NCBI GenBank assembly: GCA_945861535.1
Contig: CAMAUZ010000015.1
Span: 1 to 64,000 of the forward strand
DNA from: Akkermansia muciniphila
Lineage (GTDB): Bacteria > Verrucomicrobiota > Verrucomicrobiia > Limisphaerales > BJHT01
DNA length: 64,000 bases
Reading direction: 5' to 3'
The notes beneath the pieces were generated by a model. It worked only from the letters and a program-made list of their open reading frames with translations, was not told where the DNA came from and did not search any database. Shown piece after piece: positions 8,500-52,480 of this stretch. The first letter of the stretch is position 1. Each line of letters begins with the position of its first letter. Position numbers and translations under genes: made by a program.

Positions 8500-8579
8500 G
8501 GTAGGGCGCGTCTGTCCTCAGCGCGCCGCGGCTCCGTGGGTACCCGCAAGCGGCGCGCTGAGGACAGACGCGCCCTACC
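8500..8579. repeat. Long hairpin, family F (GTAGGGCGCGTCTGTCCTCA)
   Basis: A 29-nt arm (8500-8528) is repeated as an essentially perfect inverted copy (8551-8579) around a short loop. Relatives occur at 36641-36724 and, partly, 41803-41860. There is no T-run after it, so it is an interspersed palindrome, though it could act as a terminator between pilT and the next gene. Confidence 0.85.
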
Positions 8580-10292: not shown

Positions 10293-10428
10293 CGGAGCGC
10301 GGCTGTGTCCCGCGCCGAGCGGGATCAGCCGCAGCGGCTCCGCCGGAAGTGACGGCCAGGGAGAAAACACAGCCTTCGCAAGCCTCGTCCGTGCTGCGGC
10401 TGGTCGCTGCGACACAGCCGCGCTCCGA
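10293..10428. repeat. Interspersed inverted repeat, family B (copy 1)
   Basis: GGAGCGCGGCTGTGTCC on the left and GACACAGCCGCGCTCC on the right bound the element. Inner arms carry AGCCGCAGCGGC and its complement. The same design recurs at 17138-17266, 31279-31408, 51885-52013 and 59919-60055, with a half copy at 55150-55185. With family D it accounts for most of the 422-nt gap before the next gene. Confidence 0.85.
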
Positions 10429-10509: not shown

Positions 10510-13500
10510 ATGAAATCTCTCAGCTTCGAATCTCTTGTGAAACCAGCGTCCGCCTCCCTGCGGAGCGCCGAGCATTGCTCGGCCTGTTCCGGTTTGGTCC
10601 GTCGTGCCGAGCAATGCTCGGCGCTCCGTGCTCGGGGCCGCGTCGGCACGGCCGCCCTCTTTATCACAGCGCTCCTGCTGGTGCTCGCCGCGTTCACTTC
10701 CCGCGCCGCCGCGCCGGACGCCGAGGCGCAGGAGATTCTGCGGACCGCCGGGGTGAAAGGTGGCATCGTCGTGCATCTGGGTGCGGGCGACGGGCGGTTG
10801 ACGGCGGCGCTGCGGGCGAACGCGAGCTATCAGGTTCACGGGCTGAGCACAGACGCAGCGACGATCCCGGCGGCGCGCGAGGCGATTCGCACGCTCGGCG
10901 TTTACGGGCCGGTCAGCGTGGACTTTCTCGACGGCAAGGAGCTTCCCTACATCGACAATCTGGTGAACCTGCTGGTCGCGGAAAATCTCGGTGGCGTGGC
11001 GATGAGCGAGGTGTTGCGCGTGCTGGTGCCGAATGGCGTGGCGCTCGTGAAACAGGACGGCAAATGGGTGAAGAGCGTGAAGCCGCGGCCGACGACGCTC
11101 GATGACTGGACGCACTACTACTACGACGCCAAGGGCAACGCGACGTCGCACGACCAGGTGGTCGCGCCGCCGGAGCGGTTGCAGTGGGTGGGCAATCCGC
11201 GGTGGTCGCGGCATCACGACCGCATGTCGAGCCTGAGCGCGATGGTGTCGGGCGGCGGGCGGATTTTTTACATCATGGACGAGGGGTCGCGCATTTCGAT
11301 CCTGCTGCCCGCAAAGTGGGCGATCGTCGCGCGCGACGCGTTCAACGGCACGGTCCTGTGGAAGCAGGCCATCAACCGCTGGCAGAGCACTCTCTGGCCG
11401 TTGAAATCCGGCCCGACGCAGCTCGCGCGCCGGCTCGTGGTGGATGGCGACCGCGTGTTGGTGACGCTGGGCATCGACGCGCCGGTGAGCCATCTGGACG
11501 CGGCGACCGGCAAGACCGTGCGGGTCTTCGAGAGCACGAAAGGCGCGGAGGAAATCCTGCACGTCAACGGCGTGCTCTACTGCCTCGTGAACCCGCGGCC
11601 GTGGGTGCTCGAGGACTTTGCGCCGAAGCACAACACCGGCGATCAGAAGCGTGTGGAGACGGAGTTCAACTGGGATCAGCAGCCGCGCGAACTGGTCGCG
11701 GTCGAGGTCGCGTCGGGGCGGCAGTTGTGGCGCAAGACCGACGTGAAAGTCGCGCCGCTCTCGCTGGCGACCGACGGGCAGCGGCTGATTTTTTACGATG
11801 GCGACAAACTCATCCAGCTCGATCCCGCGACGGGCACGCAGCGCTGGGCGGGGCCGCCCGCGCCGAAGCGAAAACTCTTCGAGTACAACTACGGCCCGCG
11901 CGTGGTGATGCACAGCAACGTGGTGCTCTACGCGGGCGGCGACGGCTCGATGAAGGGGCTGAATCTCGACTCGGGCAAGGAGCTGTGGAGCGCGCCGCAC
12001 AACAAGTCGGGCTACCGTTCGCCGGAAGATTTGATCGTGGCGGGCGGGCTGGTGTGGAACGCGGCGACGTTGTCCGGCGGCATGGCCGGCGAGTTCATCG
12101 GGCGCGATCCGTGGACGGGCGAGGCGAAGGTGCAGTTCCCGCCGGACGTGAACACCTATTGGTTTCACCACCGCTGCTACATCGCCAAGGCGACGGACCG
12201 GTTTCTCTTGCCGTCGCGCACGGGGATCGAGTTCGTGGACATCAAGGCGAAGCACTGGGACATCAACCACTGGGTGCGCGGCGCGTGCCTCTACGGCGTG
12301 CTGCCGTGCAACGGCCTGACCTACGCGGGGCCGCACAATTGCGCCTGCTATCCTGAGGCGAAGCTCGATGGCATGAACGCGCTCGCGCCCGGCACGATGT
12401 CCGCGCATCCGAAACCGCGCGCCGACGCGCAGCGCCTGGAACGCGGACCGGCCTTCGGGCAGGCCGTCACCGAACCCGACGCCGACGTGAACGACTGGCC
12501 GACCTATCGCCACGACGCCGCGCGCAGCGGCTACACGAGCCAGGCCCTCAAGCCCGATCTCGGCAAGGCATGGGAACTCAAGCTGGGCGGGCCATTGAGC
12601 GCGGTCACGATCGCGGCGGGGAAGCTCTTTGTCTCGCAGATCGACCAGCACACGATCCATGCGCTCGACGCGGTGACGGGGAAGCCGCAGTGGCATTTCA
12701 TCGCGGGCGGACGCGTGGATTCGCCGCCGACCTATTGGAAGGGCCGCGTGCTCTTCGGCGGCAAGGACGGCAGCGTGTACTGCCTGCGCGGCCGCGACGG
12801 CGCGCTGATCTGGCGGTATCGCGCCGCGCCGAGCGACCGGCGGCTCGGGGCCTTCGAGCAGGTGGAATCGGTGTGGCCGGTTCACGGCAGCGTGCTCGTG
12901 GAAAATGACACGGTTAGCTTCGTCGCGGGGCGCTCGATCTTTCTCGATGGCGGCCTGCATTTCTTCCGGCTCGACGCCGCGACGGGGCGCAAGCTGGTCG
13001 AGGAAAATTACGACGACAAAGATCCCGAGACGGGCCGCGACATCCAGGAACGCGTGAAGACGCTGCAAATGCCGGTCGGGCTGAACGACATTCTTTCGAG
13101 CGACAAAAAGTGGACCTACCTCCGCACGCAGAAGATCGGCGCGGACGGCAAGCGCGTGGACATCGGCCCGGTGTCGGGCGACGCGATCAAGCAGGGTGCC
13201 TCGCAGACGGGCGAGGGCGCGCACATTTTCGCGCCGATGGGTTTCCTCGATGACTCGTGGTTTCACCGCAGCTACTGGGTTTACGGGAAGAGCTTCGCGG
13301 GCGGGCACAACGGGTATTACCAGGCCGGCAAATACGCGCCGTCGGGCCGCATCCTCGTGTTCGATGAGAAGAACGTGTACGCCTACGGTCGCGAGCCGCA
13401 GTACTACAAATGGACCACCACGATGGAGCATCAGCTTTTCTCCGCGCCGAAAGACGCGCCCGTGGTGCCGGGTGTCGGCGAGGATGCGGCGCCCGCGGCT

Positions 13501-14586
13501 GGTCCGCGCGGCAAGGGCAAGCCGGGCGCAAACGTGGCGGCCGCAGCGGCCGGGATGGCCGTGACATTTCCCGATGCCGACAAGCTCGATCCGTCGGCCA
13601 AGCCGCTCACGATCGAGGCGTGGGTATCGCCAGATGCCAAGGACGGCGCGGTCGTTTCGCACGGCGGACCGCTGAATGGTTTTGCGCTGGTGATTCAGAA
13701 AGGCCAACCGGCGTTCCACGTTCGCAGCGCGAAGAATGCGGGCGCGGTCGTCGCGCCGAACGCGCTCAGCGAGGGCTGGCATCATCTGGCGGGCGTGCTC
13801 GCGGCGGACGGGCGGCTGCGCATTTTTGTCGATGGCAAACTGGCGGCCGAGGGCCACGGGCCGGGCTTGATCGCGGCGCGGCCGAAGAACCCGCTGCGCT
13901 TCGGATTCGAGGGCGGGATCACGGAGGACGGGCCGGTCGCGGCGTTCTCAGGCCTGCTGGATCACGTCGCCATTTATCATCGCGCGCTGACGGCGGCGGA
14001 ACTGCAGCACCACGCTGACCAGCCCAGCGAGGTCAAGCCGGAGCCGGGACTGGTTTTGTTCTGCACCTTCGACAAAGCGGACGCGCGGGACGAATCGGGT
14101 AGCCGCGCGCACGGCGTAATGACGGGCGTGCAATCGGGCAAGGGCAAGGTCAACGCGGGCTTGGTGTTCCGTCCGCCGAAACCCGTGAACGTGATCACGG
14201 CGAAGCTGCCCGCGCCGCGCAATTCGGGAATGTTCGTGCAACAGAACTGGCAGCGCTACGTGCCCGTCGTGACGCGCGCGATGGCGATGGCGGGCAAGAC
14301 GATTTTCCTCTCGGGTCCGCCGGACGTGGTGGATGAAGAGTACGCGTTCGAGCGGCTGACACAGAAGGACAAGTCGATCCTGCCGTTGCTCGCCAAGCAG
14401 GACGCAGCCTTGGATGGCAAAGGCGGCGGACGCTTGTTCGCGGTCTCGACGGAGAGCGGCGGGCAGAGCGCGGAGATTGATCTGGAGAGTCCGCCGATCT
14501 GGGACGGGATGGCGGTGGCGCAGGGGCGGCTCTACATCGCGGACATGGACGGCGTGGTGCGCTGCTACGGGCGCGCGAACGAGTGA
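10510..14586 (+). CDS. Large secreted PQQ-type beta-propeller protein with a LamG domain
   Basis: A 1358-residue exported protein. Residues 42-67 are the hydrophobic secretion signal. Residues 75-185 resemble a Rossmann/SAM-binding fold (VVHLGAGDGRLTAAL) and may be a degenerate methyltransferase domain. Two blocks of PQQ-like beta-propeller repeats follow (about 200-620 and 660-980), with recurring aliphatic-tryptophan units such as TGKPQWHF and DGALIWRY. A concanavalin A-like/LamG domain lies at about 1015-1165 (TIEAWV, WHHLAGVL, RIFVDGKLAAEG). The last 180 residues are again propeller-like. Such proteins are common in Verrucomicrobia and Planctomycetes; no enzymatic activity can be assigned. 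Residues 18-40 are encoded by a perfect inverted repeat placed just before the signal sequence, an unusual insertion that keeps the frame. Confidence 0.85.
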   Translation: MKSLSFESLVKPASASLRSAEHCSACSGLVRRAEQCSALRARGRVGTAALFITALLLVLAAFTSRAAAPDAEAQEILRTAGVKGGIVVHLGAGDGRLTAALRANASYQVHGLSTDAATIPAAREAIRTLGVYGPVSVDFLDGKELPYIDNLVNLLVAENLGGVAMSEVLRVLVPNGVALVKQDGKWVKSVKPRPTTLDDWTHYYYDAKGNATSHDQVVAPPERLQWVGNPRWSRHHDRMSSLSAMVSGGGRIFYIMDEGSRISILLPAKWAIVARDAFNGTVLWKQAINRWQSTLWPLKSGPTQLARRLVVDGDRVLVTLGIDAPVSHLDAATGKTVRVFESTKGAEEILHVNGVLYCLVNPRPWVLEDFAPKHNTGDQKRVETEFNWDQQPRELVAVEVASGRQLWRKTDVKVAPLSLATDGQRLIFYDGDKLIQLDPATGTQRWAGPPAPKRKLFEYNYGPRVVMHSNVVLYAGGDGSMKGLNLDSGKELWSAPHNKSGYRSPEDLIVAGGLVWNAATLSGGMAGEFIGRDPWTGEAKVQFPPDVNTYWFHHRCYIAKATDRFLLPSRTGIEFVDIKAKHWDINHWVRGACLYGVLPCNGLTYAGPHNCACYPEAKLDGMNALAPGTMSAHPKPRADAQRLERGPAFGQAVTEPDADVNDWPTYRHDAARSGYTSQALKPDLGKAWELKLGGPLSAVTIAAGKLFVSQIDQHTIHALDAVTGKPQWHFIAGGRVDSPPTYWKGRVLFGGKDGSVYCLRGRDGALIWRYRAAPSDRRLGAFEQVESVWPVHGSVLVENDTVSFVAGRSIFLDGGLHFFRLDAATGRKLVEENYDDKDPETGRDIQERVKTLQMPVGLNDILSSDKKWTYLRTQKIGADGKRVDIGPVSGDAIKQGASQTGEGAHIFAPMGFLDDSWFHRSYWVYGKSFAGGHNGYYQAGKYAPSGRILVFDEKNVYAYGREPQYYKWTTTMEHQLFSAPKDAPVVPGVGEDAAPAAGPRGKGKPGANVAAAAAGMAVTFPDADKLDPSAKPLTIEAWVSPDAKDGAVVSHGGPLNGFALVIQKGQPAFHVRSAKNAGAVVAPNALSEGWHHLAGVLAADGRLRIFVDGKLAAEGHGPGLIAARPKNPLRFGFEGGITEDGPVAAFSGLLDHVAIYHRALTAAELQHHADQPSEVKPEPGLVLFCTFDKADARDESGSRAHGVMTGVQSGKGKVNAGLVFRPPKPVNVITAKLPAPRNSGMFVQQNWQRYVPVVTRAMAMAGKTIFLSGPPDVVDEEYAFERLTQKDKSILPLLAKQDAALDGKGGGRLFAVSTESGGQSAEIDLESPPIWDGMAVAQGRLYIADMDGVVRCYGRANE
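10561..10628. repeat. Perfect 23-bp inverted repeat inside the start of a coding sequence
   Basis: Arms 10561-10583 and 10606-10628 are exact reverse complements with the core CGAGCATTGCTCGG. Only 68 nt long, it is translated as residues 18-40 of the propeller protein, between the initiator region and the signal peptide. Confidence 0.9.
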
Positions 14587-17137: not shown

Positions 17138-17266
17138 GGAGCGCGGCTGTGTCCGCCGAGGACCAGCCGCAGCGGCCGCGAAACCGTGCATGCCCCCGTT
17201 GGATTCCGAGGCGTCCCTTGCGGCCAACCCGCTGCGGCTGGTGCTCCGCGCACACAGCCGCGCTCC
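17138..17266. repeat. Family B repeat (copy 2), first part of a composite element
   Basis: Bounded by GGAGCGCGGCTGTG and CACAGCCGCGCTCC. It is preceded by CACAGAGACGCGATGGACAC and followed by family C copy 2. The whole block 17092-17790 resembles 51838-52480 in the same order and orientation, so the pair behaves as a single long duplicated element. The gap holds no gene. Confidence 0.85.
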
Positions 17267-31964: not shown

Positions 31965-32663
31965 TCAAAGCTTCGGTGCCAAATCCACGCGCGCCTTTTT
32001 CAGCGCTTCCTCCAGCGCCTCGCGCTTGGTTTTCGCGGCGTCGATCCACGCGATGACCGCGCTGGGCATGGTGCTCACAGTGGCGCGCTCGACGCCGTCG
32101 AGCTTGGCGACGGCTTGGTAGGCGGCGTAGCGGCAGCCCTTGCAGTCCAGCACGCCGATGGGGATTTCCACCTTGGCCAGCTTGTCCGTCGGCACGGTGG
32201 ACCGCGCGGTGACGGTGAACGTGTTTTTGGAAGCCTGGCCGATAAGCGCGCTGAGACGCTCGATGATTTTTTCCGGTGCGGGCGGCTGCTTGGGCTTCGC
32301 GGTGGGGAAGAGCTTTTCCAATTGGAAGCGCAGCGTGACCTCGGCCTGCGCGGCATCGAGGCTGACCAGCGCCACGTCTGGCACAGTCTTCAACACTTCG
32401 CGCAAGTCCGTCTCGCGCTCCGGTGCGCTCAGGCCGATGAGCCGGTACGTGCCGGTCTGCTCCTCGGCGAGCGCCGCAGCCACGGACAGCAGCATCGCGA
32501 CCAGCCATGCGCCAAGGCCCTGGAGCGCCGGTCTCCGACCCGGCGCGAACCGAGAACCGCGACCCGCCGGGTCGGAGACCGGCGCTCCGTCCGCACTGTG
32601 TCCGTTCCGCGTCACCCCGCCCCCCACCATTCTGTGCCCATCATTTTGTAAAAATGTCTTCAT
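31965..32663 (-). CDS. Exported protein with an HMA-like C-terminal domain
   Basis: A 232-residue protein. A hydrophobic secretion signal lies at residues 50-67 (GAWLVAMLLSVAAALAEEQ). Residues 85-160 form a beta-alpha module without a clear family. Residues 165-232 resemble a heavy-metal-associated domain: Cys174-x2-Cys177 in VLDCKGCRYAAYQAV, followed by GVERATVSTMPSAVIAW. Residues 26-48 are encoded by a perfect inverted repeat, an odd insertion before the signal. Its ATG overlaps the stop of the upstream DUF1592 cytochrome (ATGA, 32660-32663), so the two are co-translated, and this fixes the start ahead of the repeat. Metal or redox involvement is inferred from the CxxC motif. Confidence 0.7.
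   Translation of the reverse strand: MKTFLQNDGHRMVGGGVTRNGHSADGAPVSDPAGRGSRFAPGRRPALQGLGAWLVAMLLSVAAALAEEQTGTYRLIGLSAPERETDLREVLKTVPDVALVSLDAAQAEVTLRFQLEKLFPTAKPKQPPAPEKIIERLSALIGQASKNTFTVTARSTVPTDKLAKVEIPIGVLDCKGCRYAAYQAVAKLDGVERATVSTMPSAVIAWIDAAKTKREALEEALKKARVDLAPKL
32522..32588. repeat. Perfect 24-bp inverted repeat inside a coding sequence (family K)
   Basis: Arms 32522-32545 and 32565-32588 are exact reverse complements, core GCCGGTCTCCGACCCGG. It is translated as residues 26-48 of the HMA-like protein. A half copy follows trmL at 45286-45308. Confidence 0.9.
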
Positions 32664-35275
32664 CGCGTTTGGAAAAGCTGGCTCTGCGTCAGCTCGTGAA
32701 TCAGTGAGCGCACGCCGCCGCCCTGTTTCTGCGGGTTCGCCACGAGGGCGGCGATCTGCTCGCGGTCGCTGAAGGCGAGTTCGCGGCCGGTGGCGTACAC
32801 CGCGAACTGTTGCGCGAGGTTCTTCAGGAGCAGCGGCGAGTCCGCAGCGGCGAGCGCCTGAAACTCGCGGATGCCACCGAACTTCCGCTCGTCCGGCAGC
32901 ACGCCGCTCGCGTCCACCTTCGGACCAAGCGTGAACTTGATACTGATGAACGGGTCAATCCCGCCGCGCGGCGCCGGCTCGCCCTCGCCGATGGAACGGT
33001 AGCGCGTGCGATAGCCGCCGATGACATCGAAGCTCTCCAGCGCAAAACCCGGCGGGTCCAGCTTCGCGTGACAGCCCGCGCAGGACGCGTTGTTGCGATG
33101 CTTGTCGAGCAACTCGCGGATGGTCGTCGCGCCGCGCACGTCCGGCTCCACGGCGGCGATGTTCGGCGGCGGCGGCTCCGGCGGCTGGCCGAAGAGGCGG
33201 TCCATCACGAACGCCCCGCGCGGCACGGGCGAAGTCGTGGTGCCGTTGGCGGTGATTTTCAAAATCGCGCCCTGCGTGAGAAAACCGCCGCGCGGACAAT
33301 CCGCCGGCAGCGGCACACGGCGAATCTGCGCGCCGGTCACGCCCGCGATGCCGTAGTGCTTGGCGAGCTTCTCATTCACCATCACGAAGTCCGACTTCAC
33401 CAGGTGCGTCGCGTCGAGATTGCGGTCGAGCAGTTCGCGAAAATAGGCGCGCGTCTCGGCCACCATCGAGTCCTGCAAATACGGATTGAATTCGGGGTAA
33501 AGCTTCTTGTCCGCGTCGTTCGCAGCGATGGCCCGAAGCTTGAGCCATTGGCCGAGGAAGTCCTCGACGAAGCGCTCCGACTTCTTGTCCTGGAGCAGCC
33601 GCTCGACTTCGCCGCGCAGCGTCTTTGCGTCGCGCAATTTGCCCGCGGCGGCCAGCTCGGCGAGCCGCGCGTCAGGCGTGGAATTCCAGAGGAAATAGGC
33701 GAGGCGGCTGGCGAGCGCGAAGTCATCGAGCTTTGCGACCGGCTCGACCAAGTAGAGAAAATCCGGCGAACACAATGCCGCGCGATACGCCCAGCGCATC
33801 GCGGTCTCGAAGCAATCGCCCGCCTTCAACCGCTCCCCGACCTTCGTCACGTAATCCTTCCGCACTTCCGCCGACACCGGCCGCCGAAACGCCTTCGGCA
33901 AAAAGCTCGCGAGCAACCGGTCCGCGTCGGCGAGCGCGTTCGTGCTTTGCACGGTCCACAGCCCCTTGTCCGGGTCGGGACGATTCTTGCCCGCGCCGAT
34001 CTGGCGGACCTTCTTGCGGGCAGGCGGCGTCACGCCGGGATTGGCCTTGGCATCAAACTCCACCAGCGGCAAATCGCCGAACAGCACGCGGTGCGCGACC
34101 GGCGGCCAGACCTCATGCAGCGGCCCCTCGATGTCCAGCCAGTCGCACGCGATGCCCGGCCCGGTGAACGCCAGCGCGTGGCCTTTGCGCGCGTAGTTCG
34201 CGGCGGGCGCGAGCGACGCGACGTTGAAGCCGATGATTTCGTTGTGATTCAGCCAGGTGACCAACTCGTGCTCCTTCGACTCGAGCGACGGCGCATCGTA
34301 GTAGCCCAGCACGTAGCTCGGGTGCTGCCCGCCACGCCCGTCGCCGGTGAGTTGCACTACGGAAAGCCGCGCCGCCTCCGTGCCACGCGCCGGGAGAACT
34401 TTCCCTTTGTCCCATTGAAAGGCCCACACCGAGGTGCGCACGCGATACCGGCCGGGATAAATCGTGACGTGCTCGATGAAATACGGACTCAGCGACTCGT
34501 CCTCGTGACGGAAGAGGCCGGTGCTGCTGTTCGTGGTGAAAATGCCCAACCGCTCGTGCGCGCCCTGATCCAGATGCGTCCACTCGCCCGCGGGCGGGAA
34601 GTCCGGGTCCGGCTGCTTGTTCTTCAGCAACACGCCATCGCCATTCATCACGACGTGCGTAACGAAGCCGCCCGCATTCATCAGTGAGATGCGGCGAAGC
34701 TGCCGCGTCGGCGCGTCGGGCCGGGTGGCAGTGGCGAGTTCCAGCGTGTGCTCGGCGGCCTCGACATACTTGGCGAGGTTCACATGCGAGATGTCCAGCG
34801 CGTCGCTGTTCTTGTCGAAGCCGTGCGCCGAGCCGTCGGCGGGCAGATTCCCCTGCAGTGCGATGCCCGGCATGTCGAAGAGGTCGCGAATCGTGTTCTC
34901 ATACTCCGCGCGTGTGAGCCGGCGCAGCCCCGTGCGGCCCGCCCCCGCGAGCTTCGCCTGCTCCGCCGCGAGCAGCGACTCGCGTAACGCCTTCACCACC
35001 GCCACCGTGTCCGCGACAGGCGGACGCGCCGTTTTCTTCGGCGGCATTTCGCCCGACTCGATGCGGTCATGCACCTTCACCCACCGCGCGAAATTCTCCG
35101 CGTTGGCGAAGTCCGGCTTGAGCGCGGTGAGATCGAGGTTGCCCTTCTTCGTGTCCGCGTCGTGGCACTCGATGCAATGCCGGGAGAAAAAGGCCGGCGG
35201 CGGAAACTCCGCGGCGTGGGTGGCAACGCCGGTGACGAAAAGCACCAAGCTTCGGAAAAGCCCACTCGCCATCAT
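32660..35275 (-). CDS. Planctomycete-type cytochrome with DUF1587/1595/1592/1588/1585 domains
   Basis: A secreted protein of about 871 residues typical of Planctomycetes and Verrucomicrobia. A signal peptide (MASGLFRSLVLFVTGVATHA) is followed by a cytochrome c-like domain with the heme motif CIECH near residue 35. DUF1587 starts at RTGLRRLTRAEYENTIRDLF, DUF1595 and DUF1592 follow in the middle (RLLASFLPKAFRRPV, then ALASRLAYFLWNSTPD), and DUF1588 includes NASCAGCHAKLDPPGF, which holds a second CxxCH. DUF1585 closes the protein (LAQQFAVYATGRELAF). The function is not established; a role in extracellular electron transfer or polysaccharide oxidation is often proposed. The usual DUF1552 partner is missing; the next gene is the overlapping HMA-like gene. 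The start could also be 35299. Confidence 0.88.
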   Translation of the reverse strand: MMASGLFRSLVLFVTGVATHAAEFPPPAFFSRHCIECHDADTKKGNLDLTALKPDFANAENFARWVKVHDRIESGEMPPKKTARPPVADTVAVVKALRESLLAAEQAKLAGAGRTGLRRLTRAEYENTIRDLFDMPGIALQGNLPADGSAHGFDKNSDALDISHVNLAKYVEAAEHTLELATATRPDAPTRQLRRISLMNAGGFVTHVVMNGDGVLLKNKQPDPDFPPAGEWTHLDQGAHERLGIFTTNSSTGLFRHEDESLSPYFIEHVTIYPGRYRVRTSVWAFQWDKGKVLPARGTEAARLSVVQLTGDGRGGQHPSYVLGYYDAPSLESKEHELVTWLNHNEIIGFNVASLAPAANYARKGHALAFTGPGIACDWLDIEGPLHEVWPPVAHRVLFGDLPLVEFDAKANPGVTPPARKKVRQIGAGKNRPDPDKGLWTVQSTNALADADRLLASFLPKAFRRPVSAEVRKDYVTKVGERLKAGDCFETAMRWAYRAALCSPDFLYLVEPVAKLDDFALASRLAYFLWNSTPDARLAELAAAGKLRDAKTLRGEVERLLQDKKSERFVEDFLGQWLKLRAIAANDADKKLYPEFNPYLQDSMVAETRAYFRELLDRNLDATHLVKSDFVMVNEKLAKHYGIAGVTGAQIRRVPLPADCPRGGFLTQGAILKITANGTTTSPVPRGAFVMDRLFGQPPEPPPPNIAAVEPDVRGATTIRELLDKHRNNASCAGCHAKLDPPGFALESFDVIGGYRTRYRSIGEGEPAPRGGIDPFISIKFTLGPKVDASGVLPDERKFGGIREFQALAAADSPLLLKNLAQQFAVYATGRELAFSDREQIAALVANPQKQGGGVRSLIHELTQSQLFQTR

Positions 35276-35427
35276 GAACCGCAGATTTAGCCAATGCACC
35301 CGCCTACGACGCGCCCCAAGGCCAGCCGCCGCAAGTCAAATTGATCTGGATTCGCCAGCCCAACCCCGGAGAGGCGTCACGAATCGCCCGGAGTCGCACA
35401 CTTCGTGAAACGCGCGCCAAGCCGGCG

Positions 35428-35515
35428 CAACCCCGTAGGGGTTCCCCATGAATAGCCAGGGGTCGCATGCCCCCTGGACCACGCACCGAGCGGGCACAAC
35501 CCCGGCGGGGTTGCC
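35428..35515. repeat. REP palindromes left of the transposase
   Basis: Three short hairpins: CAACCCCGTAGGGGTT, CCAGGGGTCGCATGCCCCCTGG and CAACCCCGGCGGGGTTG. Matching units are found on the other side of the transposase, some with GAATAGCC or GGCTATTC spacers. This is the expected arrangement of REP sequences around a RAYT gene. Confidence 0.85.
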
Positions 35516-35538
35516 CCATGCGCGGCGGACGCTACCCT
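35511..35538 (+). promoter_or_regulatory. Possible promoter of the Y1 transposase, overlapping a REP
   Basis: TTGCCC (35511-35516) at the edge of the last left REP, a 16-nt spacer, TACCCT (35533-35538), then ATG after 6 nt. REP folding would hide the -35 element, a possible self-limiting control. Confidence 0.35.
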
Positions 35539-35544
35539 CGCTGC

Positions 35545-35991
35545 ATGGCAACCTACACCGACATCACCTACCATCTTGTCTTCGGCACCAAGCACCGCGC
35601 GCGAGTTCTGGACAAGCCGCGGCGAGACGACCTCTATCGTTTCATCTGGGGAATATTGAAAGCCCGCGACTGCCATTTGTATCGGATTGGCGGGGTGGAA
35701 GATCATGTTCACATCCTGACTTCGCTGCATCCCTCGGTGGCACTGGCCGACCTCGTGAAGGAAATCAAAACCGCCACTTCCGCATGGATCAAAGGGCGGC
35801 AGGTGTTTCGCTCGTTCGAACATTGGCAGGAGGGCTACGGGGCTTTCACGGTAGCGGCGGAAGCGCGGCCAGCATTGATCGAATACATCAAGGGACAGGA
35901 GGCGCACCACGCGCGGGAGAGTTTCGTGGACGAACTGCGGCGCATGGTCGAGACCGCGCATCTGACCTGGCAGGCGGACCACCTGCCCTGA
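35545..35991 (+). CDS. REP-associated / IS200-like Y1 transposase (RAYT)
   Basis: A 148-residue HUH single-strand transposase of the Y1 class. The metal-binding HUH motif is EDHVHIL with His54 and His56. The nucleophile is probably Tyr114 in LIEYIKGQEAHH. The opening TYTDITYHLVFGTKHR is the usual first strand. It is flanked by palindromic REP units on both sides rather than by long inverted ends, and no TnpB is nearby, which fits a domesticated REP-mobilising enzyme better than an autonomous IS200. The protein is full length with no frameshift, so it may be active on the REPs of this genome. Confidence 0.9.
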   Translation: MATYTDITYHLVFGTKHRARVLDKPRRDDLYRFIWGILKARDCHLYRIGGVEDHVHILTSLHPSVALADLVKEIKTATSAWIKGRQVFRSFEHWQEGYGAFTVAAEARPALIEYIKGQEAHHARESFVDELRRMVETAHLTWQADHLP

Positions 35992-36011
35992 ATGGCGGCC
36001 TGGGCGCGCAT

Positions 36012-36190
36012 TGGGCAACCCCTGCGGGGTTGTGTTCGCACGGCTCCCAAACCAGGGGTCATGCGACCCCTGGCTATTCAGGGGGAACCCCGCCGGGGTT
36101 CGGGACTGGTGCGACGGATGTCCGGGGGTGTCGCTCGTCCCTCGCGCCACCCCCGGCTATTCATGGGGAACCCCGCCGGGGTTCACCCGG
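36012..36190. repeat. REP palindromes right of the transposase
   Basis: CAACCCCTGCGGGGTTG, CCAGGGGTCATGCGACCCCTGG and two AACCCCGCCGGGGTT hairpins, interspersed with GGCTATTCA spacers. They mirror the left-hand set at 35428-35515. Confidence 0.85.
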
Positions 36191-36265
36191 GGGTGGCCAG
36201 CAGCCGTTGGATTAACCCTCATGCCTGTTGGTAATTCCAACCCAGAATCCCAACGGGATTCCGGC

Positions 36266-36436
36266 CTCCAGCCCAGGGTTGCGAGGAACGAGCTACCCTG
36301 GGAAAGCAGTTCGATATTTCACAACCCCAACGGGGTTGCGGCCCACGGGTGGCTGGATGCCGCAACCCCGTTGGGGTTGAAGCAATTTTCCGGTGCCGAC
36401 CCAGGGGAGCTCGTTCCTCGCAACCCTGGGCTGGAG
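36266..36436. repeat. Large nested inverted repeat
   Basis: CTCCAGCCCAGGGTTGCGAG and its inverse CTCGCAACCCTGGGCTGGAG, each extended by a GGAACGAGCT block, enclose an inner palindromic pair built on CAACCCCAACGGGGTTG. A further AACCCCGTTGGGGTT follows at 36442-36456. Confidence 0.88.
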
Positions 36437-36504
36437 GACACAACCCCGTTGGGGTTGCCGAGAGTCGCGGGACACGCACCTGGTGACCCAGCATTCTTCG
36501 AATC

Positions 36505-36640: not shown

Positions 36641-36724
36641 GGTAGGGCGCGGTGTCCTCACCGCGCCGCCGAGAACCGGGGGCGTCCGGGTGGACGGCGG
36701 CGGGGTGAGGACACCCCGCCCTAC
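36641..36724. repeat. Family F hairpin (copy 2)
   Basis: GGTAGGGCGCGGTGTCCTCA on the left and TGAGGACACCCCGCCCTACC on the right, with a GC-rich loop. Related to 8500-8579. Confidence 0.85.
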
Positions 36725-36834
36725 CTCGGGGAGAATCCCAGTTTCTTGCAACGGCCTGTGTCCGCGGGCGCAGTCCCGCAGGGACGACCGAAAATAGCCC
36801 AGCACTTCAGTGCTGGGTTGGTGGCCGGGGAACC

Positions 36835-48245: not shown

Positions 48246-48343
48246 TTGTAGGAGACGACGTAAGGAGACTCCAACCTCCTTTTTTTTCCCCAACCGCGCG
48301 CCTTCCGGAGAAAAGTTAGAGTCTCCTCACGTCGTCTCCTACA
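48246..48343. repeat. Family E inverted repeat (copy 2), overlapping the argA end
   Basis: TTGTAGGAGACGACGTAAGG on the left and CCTCACGTCGTCTCCTACA on the right, with a run of eight T in the loop. The right arm supplies the last residues and the TAA stop of argA. Confidence 0.88.
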
Positions 48344-51837: not shown

Positions 51838-52480
51838 GAACCACCAAGACGCGATGAGCACAGAGCAGCGAAGCCGCAACCCAAGGAGCGCGGCTGTGTC
51901 CGCCGAGGACCAGCCGCAGCGGCCTCAAGCCCTCGCAGGCACACATTGGAATCAGAGCCGTCCCTTGCGGACACCCTGCTGCGGCTGGTGCGCCGCGCAC
52001 ACAGCCGCGCTCCGGGAGAAATCTTCGCGGCGCGCGCGGATTTCTCCGCTGCTGTGGTCGCCAGCCGACGAGCAAACAATTATTGCCAACACGTGGCTCT
52101 TGGTCCCGGAGGGACGCCGCAGGAAATTAGCCGGGGGCAAGCCCGCGCAGCGGGCGCGGCCCCCGGTTGCGCCGCCGAACGGGCCATGCCCCAGCGGGGC
52201 ATCGAAGAAGTTTTTGGCAGCGTCCGCCCCGCTGCGTTTCCGCCATCCCTCGGCACCGCGGGCCTTTTTCTTCGATGCCCCGTTGGGGCACGGAGCCAAG
52301 CGGCACCGCTTCCGGGGGCGGCGTCCGCTGCCGCGGACTTGCCCCCGGCTAATCTCCTCCGGTGTCCCGCCGGGACGGAAAACGGGCGGTCGCGCCCAGC
52401 CCCGGAAAACCCCCGGCGTACGAATGGCGTTCCAAACTCGTCCAGTTGCGGCTCCGCCGCGGTTTGTCCATCGAGCGTCT
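51838..52480. repeat. Composite repeat (family B + family C), second copy
   Basis: Contains family B copy 4 (51885-52013) and family C copy 3 (52103-52376). Flanks are shared with 17092-17790: a leading GACGCGATG-type stretch and a trailing GCGTTCCAAACTCG (52427-52440). It fills almost the whole gap between the DUF1501 and PSD1 genes. Confidence 0.85.

Follow-up and report, generated by a model that had tools for sequence, protein, structure and literature searches.

Two palindromes in signal-peptide n-regions of an Akkermansia muciniphila assembly are very likely REPIN-type mobile elements read as protein

How does a long perfect palindrome come to lie within the first codons of a gene for an exported protein, and does the ribosome read it? 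The question is raised twice by the 64,000-nucleotide stretch of an Akkermansia muciniphila assembly analysed here (GCA_945861535.1, contig CAMAUZ010000015.1; the window), once in a gene for a PQQ-propeller/laminin-G protein (gene 1) and once in a gene for an HMA-domain protein (gene 2; Table 1). The original prediction saw in the two palindromes either tolerated insertion points or a translational-control hairpin in front of a secretion signal. Our analysis makes it very likely that both are REPIN-type miniature mobile elements, which landed in the n-regions of two signal peptides, were kept there and are read through from the ancestral ATG.

Table 1. Positions of the two elements, their genes and neighbouring features in the window
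Feature	Position	Strand	Remark
Palindrome 1: REPIN-type element, two inverted GGAG-tagged REP hairpins, AGCATTGCT sub-family	10561..10628	.	codons 18-40 of the PQQ/laminin-G gene
Gene 1: exported PQQ-propeller/laminin-G protein	10510..14586	+	ATG at 10510, 51 nt 5' of the element
Palindrome 2: REPIN-type element of the same superfamily, GTCTCCGAC sub-family	32522..32588	.	codons 26-48 of the HMA gene
Gene 2: exported HMA-domain protein	31965..32663	-	ATG overlaps the stop of the upstream gene
Upstream gene: DUF1587/1592/1588/1585 protein	32660..35299	-	its stop codon overlaps, and served to place, the start of the HMA gene
Second GGAG-ended palindrome, 5' of gene 1 (GGAGCGCGGCTGTGTC ... GACACAGCCGCGCTCC)	10293..10426	.	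partly visible in the sister species

The arms of palindrome 1 (10561-10583 and 10606-10628, 23 nt each) are 100% complementary around a 22-nt loop, and those of palindrome 2 (32522-32545 and 32565-32588, 24 nt each) are 100% complementary around a 19-nt loop. Both elements are open in frame and are followed in their ORFs by a hydrophobic signal-like segment; in gene 1 the hydrophobic core of the signal peptide lies 3' of the element. The predicted 23-bp inverted repeat that keeps the frame of gene 1 is thereby confirmed, by its arms as well as by the open ORF. For the HMA gene the in-frame location of the palindrome also stands. That it is a different palindrome does not, since the two share their ends and belong to one superfamily: the inner hairpins are unlike (GCCGAGC-ATT-GCTCGGC versus CCGGTC-TCC-GACCCGG), the ends GGAGCGCCG and CGGCGCTCC are common to both, and the pattern GGAGCGCCG..CGGCGCTCC has two matches in the window versus none in 100 shuffles.

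Palindrome 1, used as query against the host genome (7.94 Mb, 169 contigs), returned dozens of dispersed copies whose similarity is confined to the element. With a strict family pattern, GGAGCGCCGN{36,60}CGGCGCTCC, the host genome yielded 72 copies (reversed-pattern control: 0) and a congeneric sister species 36 (reversed-pattern control: 1), which puts the copy number of the family in the host at 72 or more; the pattern search also showed that the sub-family of palindrome 2 has the same ends as the family of palindrome 1. Chance palindromes are ruled out by the 72 genome copies and by their absence from shuffled sequence. Each element runs from a GGAGCGCCG-hairpin over a loop of about 20 nt to an inverted copy ending in CGGCGCTCC. 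Each arm is itself a hairpin and is directly preceded by GGAG in 93 of 97 units, so that the element consists of two REPs facing each other. REPs are defined by a 5' tag GT[A/G]G at the hairpin foot (PMC3686654, PMC6006769). In the host the hairpin likewise follows directly downstream of the tag, which reads GGAG instead of GTAG or GTGG. Because the GT[A/G]G definition does not apply whereas the other testable REP features are present, we name the family a GGAG-tagged variant of REPIN. No target-site duplications were evident around the units, and no clean empty site turned up for either window copy.

Further palindromes occur in the window. Another GGAG-ended family, GGAGCGCGGCTGTGTCC..., occupies four places (17138-17266, 51885-52013, 59919 and the copy 5' of gene 1). 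In three long palindromes (8500-8579, 36641-36725 and 48247-48343) the first arm begins at or just after GTAG, which suggests REP pairs of other families with the canonical GTAG tag. The residues encoded before palindrome 2 (FLQNDGHRMVGGGV..) were considered as a second dispersed repeat and yielded no further copy in a 656-kb sample of host DNA.

Y1 transposase domains were found at nine places in the host genome. Only one of these genes, on contig 94, has GGAG-REPs, and has them on both sides; a RAYT-type gene flanked by inverted REPs of the family was thus observed directly. When the DNA is read directly, the frame of this transposase appears shifted 5' of the conserved domain, and no intact cognate transposase came to light. 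The window itself contains a Y1 (IS200-like) transposase gene at 35554-35898 with several CAACCCC-N4-GGGGTTG hairpins around it (35497-36463), and another host Y1 gene (contig 118, locus L032) is followed by repeated CTCGACATTCCAATGTCGAG-type hairpins, some of them preceded by GTAG. With its inverted pair of short REP hairpins, its 5' tetranucleotide tag, its dozens of copies per genome and its copies flanking a Y1 (HUH) transposase gene, the family resembles the REPINs and BIMEs associated with RAYTs; unlike them it bears GGAG instead of GT[A/G]G, has a sizeable intragenic share and flanks a transposase that looks frame-shifted.

Translation probably begins upstream of both palindromes and runs through them, as had been predicted; this reading builds on gene arrangement and on comparison with relatives. 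The start of the HMA gene, which overlaps the upstream stop codon, has the same position in orthologues without the insert, and the only in-frame starts 3' of the palindromes (GTG in gene 1, ATG in gene 2) lie inside the hydrophobic cores; together these points make read-through likely. In gene 1, too, the start (MKSL) is common to one of the orthologues elsewhere in the order, which lie outside the genus and carry no element. Insert-free orthologues, the comparison proposed with the original prediction, thus exist for both genes. Alternatively, the element could be extragenic, with translation starting inside or after the palindrome and the 5' untranslated sequence open by chance. Such a start would agree with coding potential being detected only 3' of the elements (called starts 10681 and 32495), with a TTG in the loop at 10594 and with other copies that appear extragenic (e.g. 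at loci L091 and L075), and many N-terminal REPs have been flagged as possibly of the extragenic kind (PMC3733652). A start after the palindrome would, however, truncate the signal peptides, and the extragenic reading leaves out of account the upstream starts shared with insert-free orthologues; we consider it improbable.

In the sister species, gene 1 carries the insertion as well, with the frame kept; the insertion at 10561 predates the species split. At the corresponding n-region, the HMA orthologue of the sister species holds another palindrome, CCCGCAGATTCA..TGAATCTGCGGG. Two patterns for this palindrome were tried on the host sample, and neither found a copy.

A second alternative, in which the hairpin controls or pauses translation and has been selected for this role ahead of secretion signals, is very improbable. 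It would fit the stable folding of the mRNAs of the two window genes relative to shuffles (z -5.0 and -4.4), the position of the elements, which begin about 50-75 nt 3' of the start codon, and an arm divergence of 2.7% versus 16% in the loop between host and sister species, a contrast at 11 shared sites that is biased because exact element ends were used to retrieve the sister regions. Across these 11 sites a double-sided pair change occurred only once (locus L080). At the gene 1 site, where the sister sequence was fetched by protein and hence blind to the element, there are three arm changes, none of them compensated; selection on the hairpin was rejected as an explanation. Furthermore, orthologues outside the genus do without the element, and the same family lies in the middle of many genes for cytoplasmic enzymes. 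The supposed link to secretion signals found no support either: 8 of 20 open-frame copies at gene 5' ends precede a hydrophobic segment versus 30% of all genes, which is not significant by the automatic hydrophobicity criterion (p=0.24). Additional pre-signal cases were recognised by eye (loci L101, L102, L106, L116 and L077), in some of which the element itself provides the start codon. In L101 (283-351) and L106 (4990-5056) an ATG lies in the right arm of the element (AATGCTCGGCGCTCC) and may start the exported protein that follows. Given no significant pre-signal enrichment, no compensation at 10561 and relatives that lack or replace the elements, tolerated insertion is supported and a control hairpin is not. 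The element may still affect the rate of translation.

The placement of other copies was surveyed in about 656 kb of host DNA, sampled mostly around copies, and 66 copies were classified; gene calls came from a hexamer model built for the purpose, which gave a coding fraction of 0.78 and misplaces the starts of exported proteins. About 19 of the 66 copies lie in frame inside called gene bodies, and all three frames are used. Gene-body copies are rarer than under random placement (p = 5e-17); despite this depletion the family is far from extragenic. Genes with in-frame copies include valS, uvrD/pcrA, addA, addB and a DNA polymerase III alpha-like gene, and copies also occur in genes for a U32 peptidase and for an enzyme of fatty-acid oxidation. 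In-frame insertion into genes of functional proteins, a feature of the Rickettsia palindromic elements (RPEs), is thus shared by the family. The copies sit at N-terminal n-regions and at loops: the element-encoded stretches of ValRS (residues 211-258) and UvrD (residues 469-527) are missing from the solved homologues 1gax and 1pjr, respectively. This recurrence at other permissive sites was observed directly and, together with the other palindrome at the sister HMA site, speaks for the tolerated insertion points of the original prediction. Several other sites carry the element in both host and sister species. For the UvrD copy, a DNA-level comparison found no counterpart in the sister species; from the UvrD comparison across genomes, rows G001, G010, G006, G013 and G012, which were in wrong frames, were left out. 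In the UvrD gene of genome G003 (locus L174) the same loop holds LTPALSPSEGARE..RPLGGGEGRGEGE, which looks like another translated palindromic repeat. In the DNA polymerase III alpha-like gene (L085 4880-5420, L149 1000-1620) another repeat, of the GTAGCCGCCGACGTGAG type, encloses the loop that holds the element, and in the sister species that loop contains two element copies.

All six frames are open in 73% of the copies, versus 16% for intergenic and 12% for shuffled sequence. This intrinsic poverty in stop codons explains frame survival, for which six-frame openness leaves suitable length as the only need. At the two window sites the element measures 66-68 nt, so the frame after insertion hinges on small junction changes that went unseen. 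The following course of events is proposed. Two inverted REP hairpins, each with GGAG at its 5' side, probably travelled as single-stranded DNA, mobilised by a RAYT-type Y1 (HUH) transposase, and copies would have inserted into the n-regions of two signal peptides. They would have been retained because the n-region tolerates extra residues and because the element is nearly stop-free in any frame. The ribosome would start at the ancestral upstream ATG and read through the element, and the encoded peptide would have no function.

The ValRS gene offers a view across genomes. The host element sits in the linker before the editing domain, and related genomes hold other palindromes there. Among the best 30 of 103 matching genomes (loci L217-L246), a choice by score that biases the frequency of inverted repeats upward, the loop was readable in 26 loci and contained an inverted repeat in 15, in 13 of which it was matched by at most 1 of 60 shuffles; in five genomes the loop comprises 6 residues and no insert. 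In G004 a member of the same GGAG family lies a few codons from the host position; the repeats of G077 and G083 are tagged with GTAG, that of G034 is preceded by GTGG, and G010 and G062 share an GGGAGCGC-type repeat. These sequences support a permissive site that received or replaced insertions more than once; alternatively, one ancient insertion may have undergone later sequence turnover. A literature search for a ValRS insertion hot spot returned no relevant paper, which is a weak negative. Only tentatively, and with doubt prevailing, do we suggest that the ValRS linker, the UvrD loop and signal-peptide n-regions are order-wide REP hot spots at which unrelated REP families repeatedly supply linker peptides. 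Such sites are possibly favoured by the REP/RAYT machinery or by selection for longer linkers.

The classic case of palindromes within protein genes is that of the Rickettsia RPEs. The elements described here resemble them, by description and not by sequence, as in-frame palindromic repeats in functional protein genes, and differ in occurring in another phylum and in flanking a RAYT-type transposase gene. Proteins with RPE-1-decorated N-termini have been reported to be expressed in vivo (PMC3733652). Intragenic REPs have been known since 2013, also from Verrucomicrobia (Di Nocera et al. 2013, PMC3733652): GTAG and CGTC REPs occur inside ORFs, most intragenic GTAG repeats were found in the Verrucomicrobium O. 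terrae, and the genes are often DnaE2, UvrABD and RecB and also tRNA-synthetase genes (PMC3733652). The host family likewise lies within ORFs, including DNA repair and tRNA-synthetase genes; it differs in the GGAG tag, in the evidence that translation of one N-terminal case begins upstream and in a ValRS loop with differing palindromes across an order. Apparently new are the GGAG tag in place of GT[A/G]G and the differing REP-like palindromes in the ValRS loop of about 13 genomes of the order.

Mobile repeats that inserted into genes and are translated with them would account for a recurring oddity of such genomes, their intragenic palindromes. The ValRS loop, with significant inverted repeats of several families in about 13 genomes, allows a test of whether small mobile DNAs regularly contribute new linkers to essential proteins.
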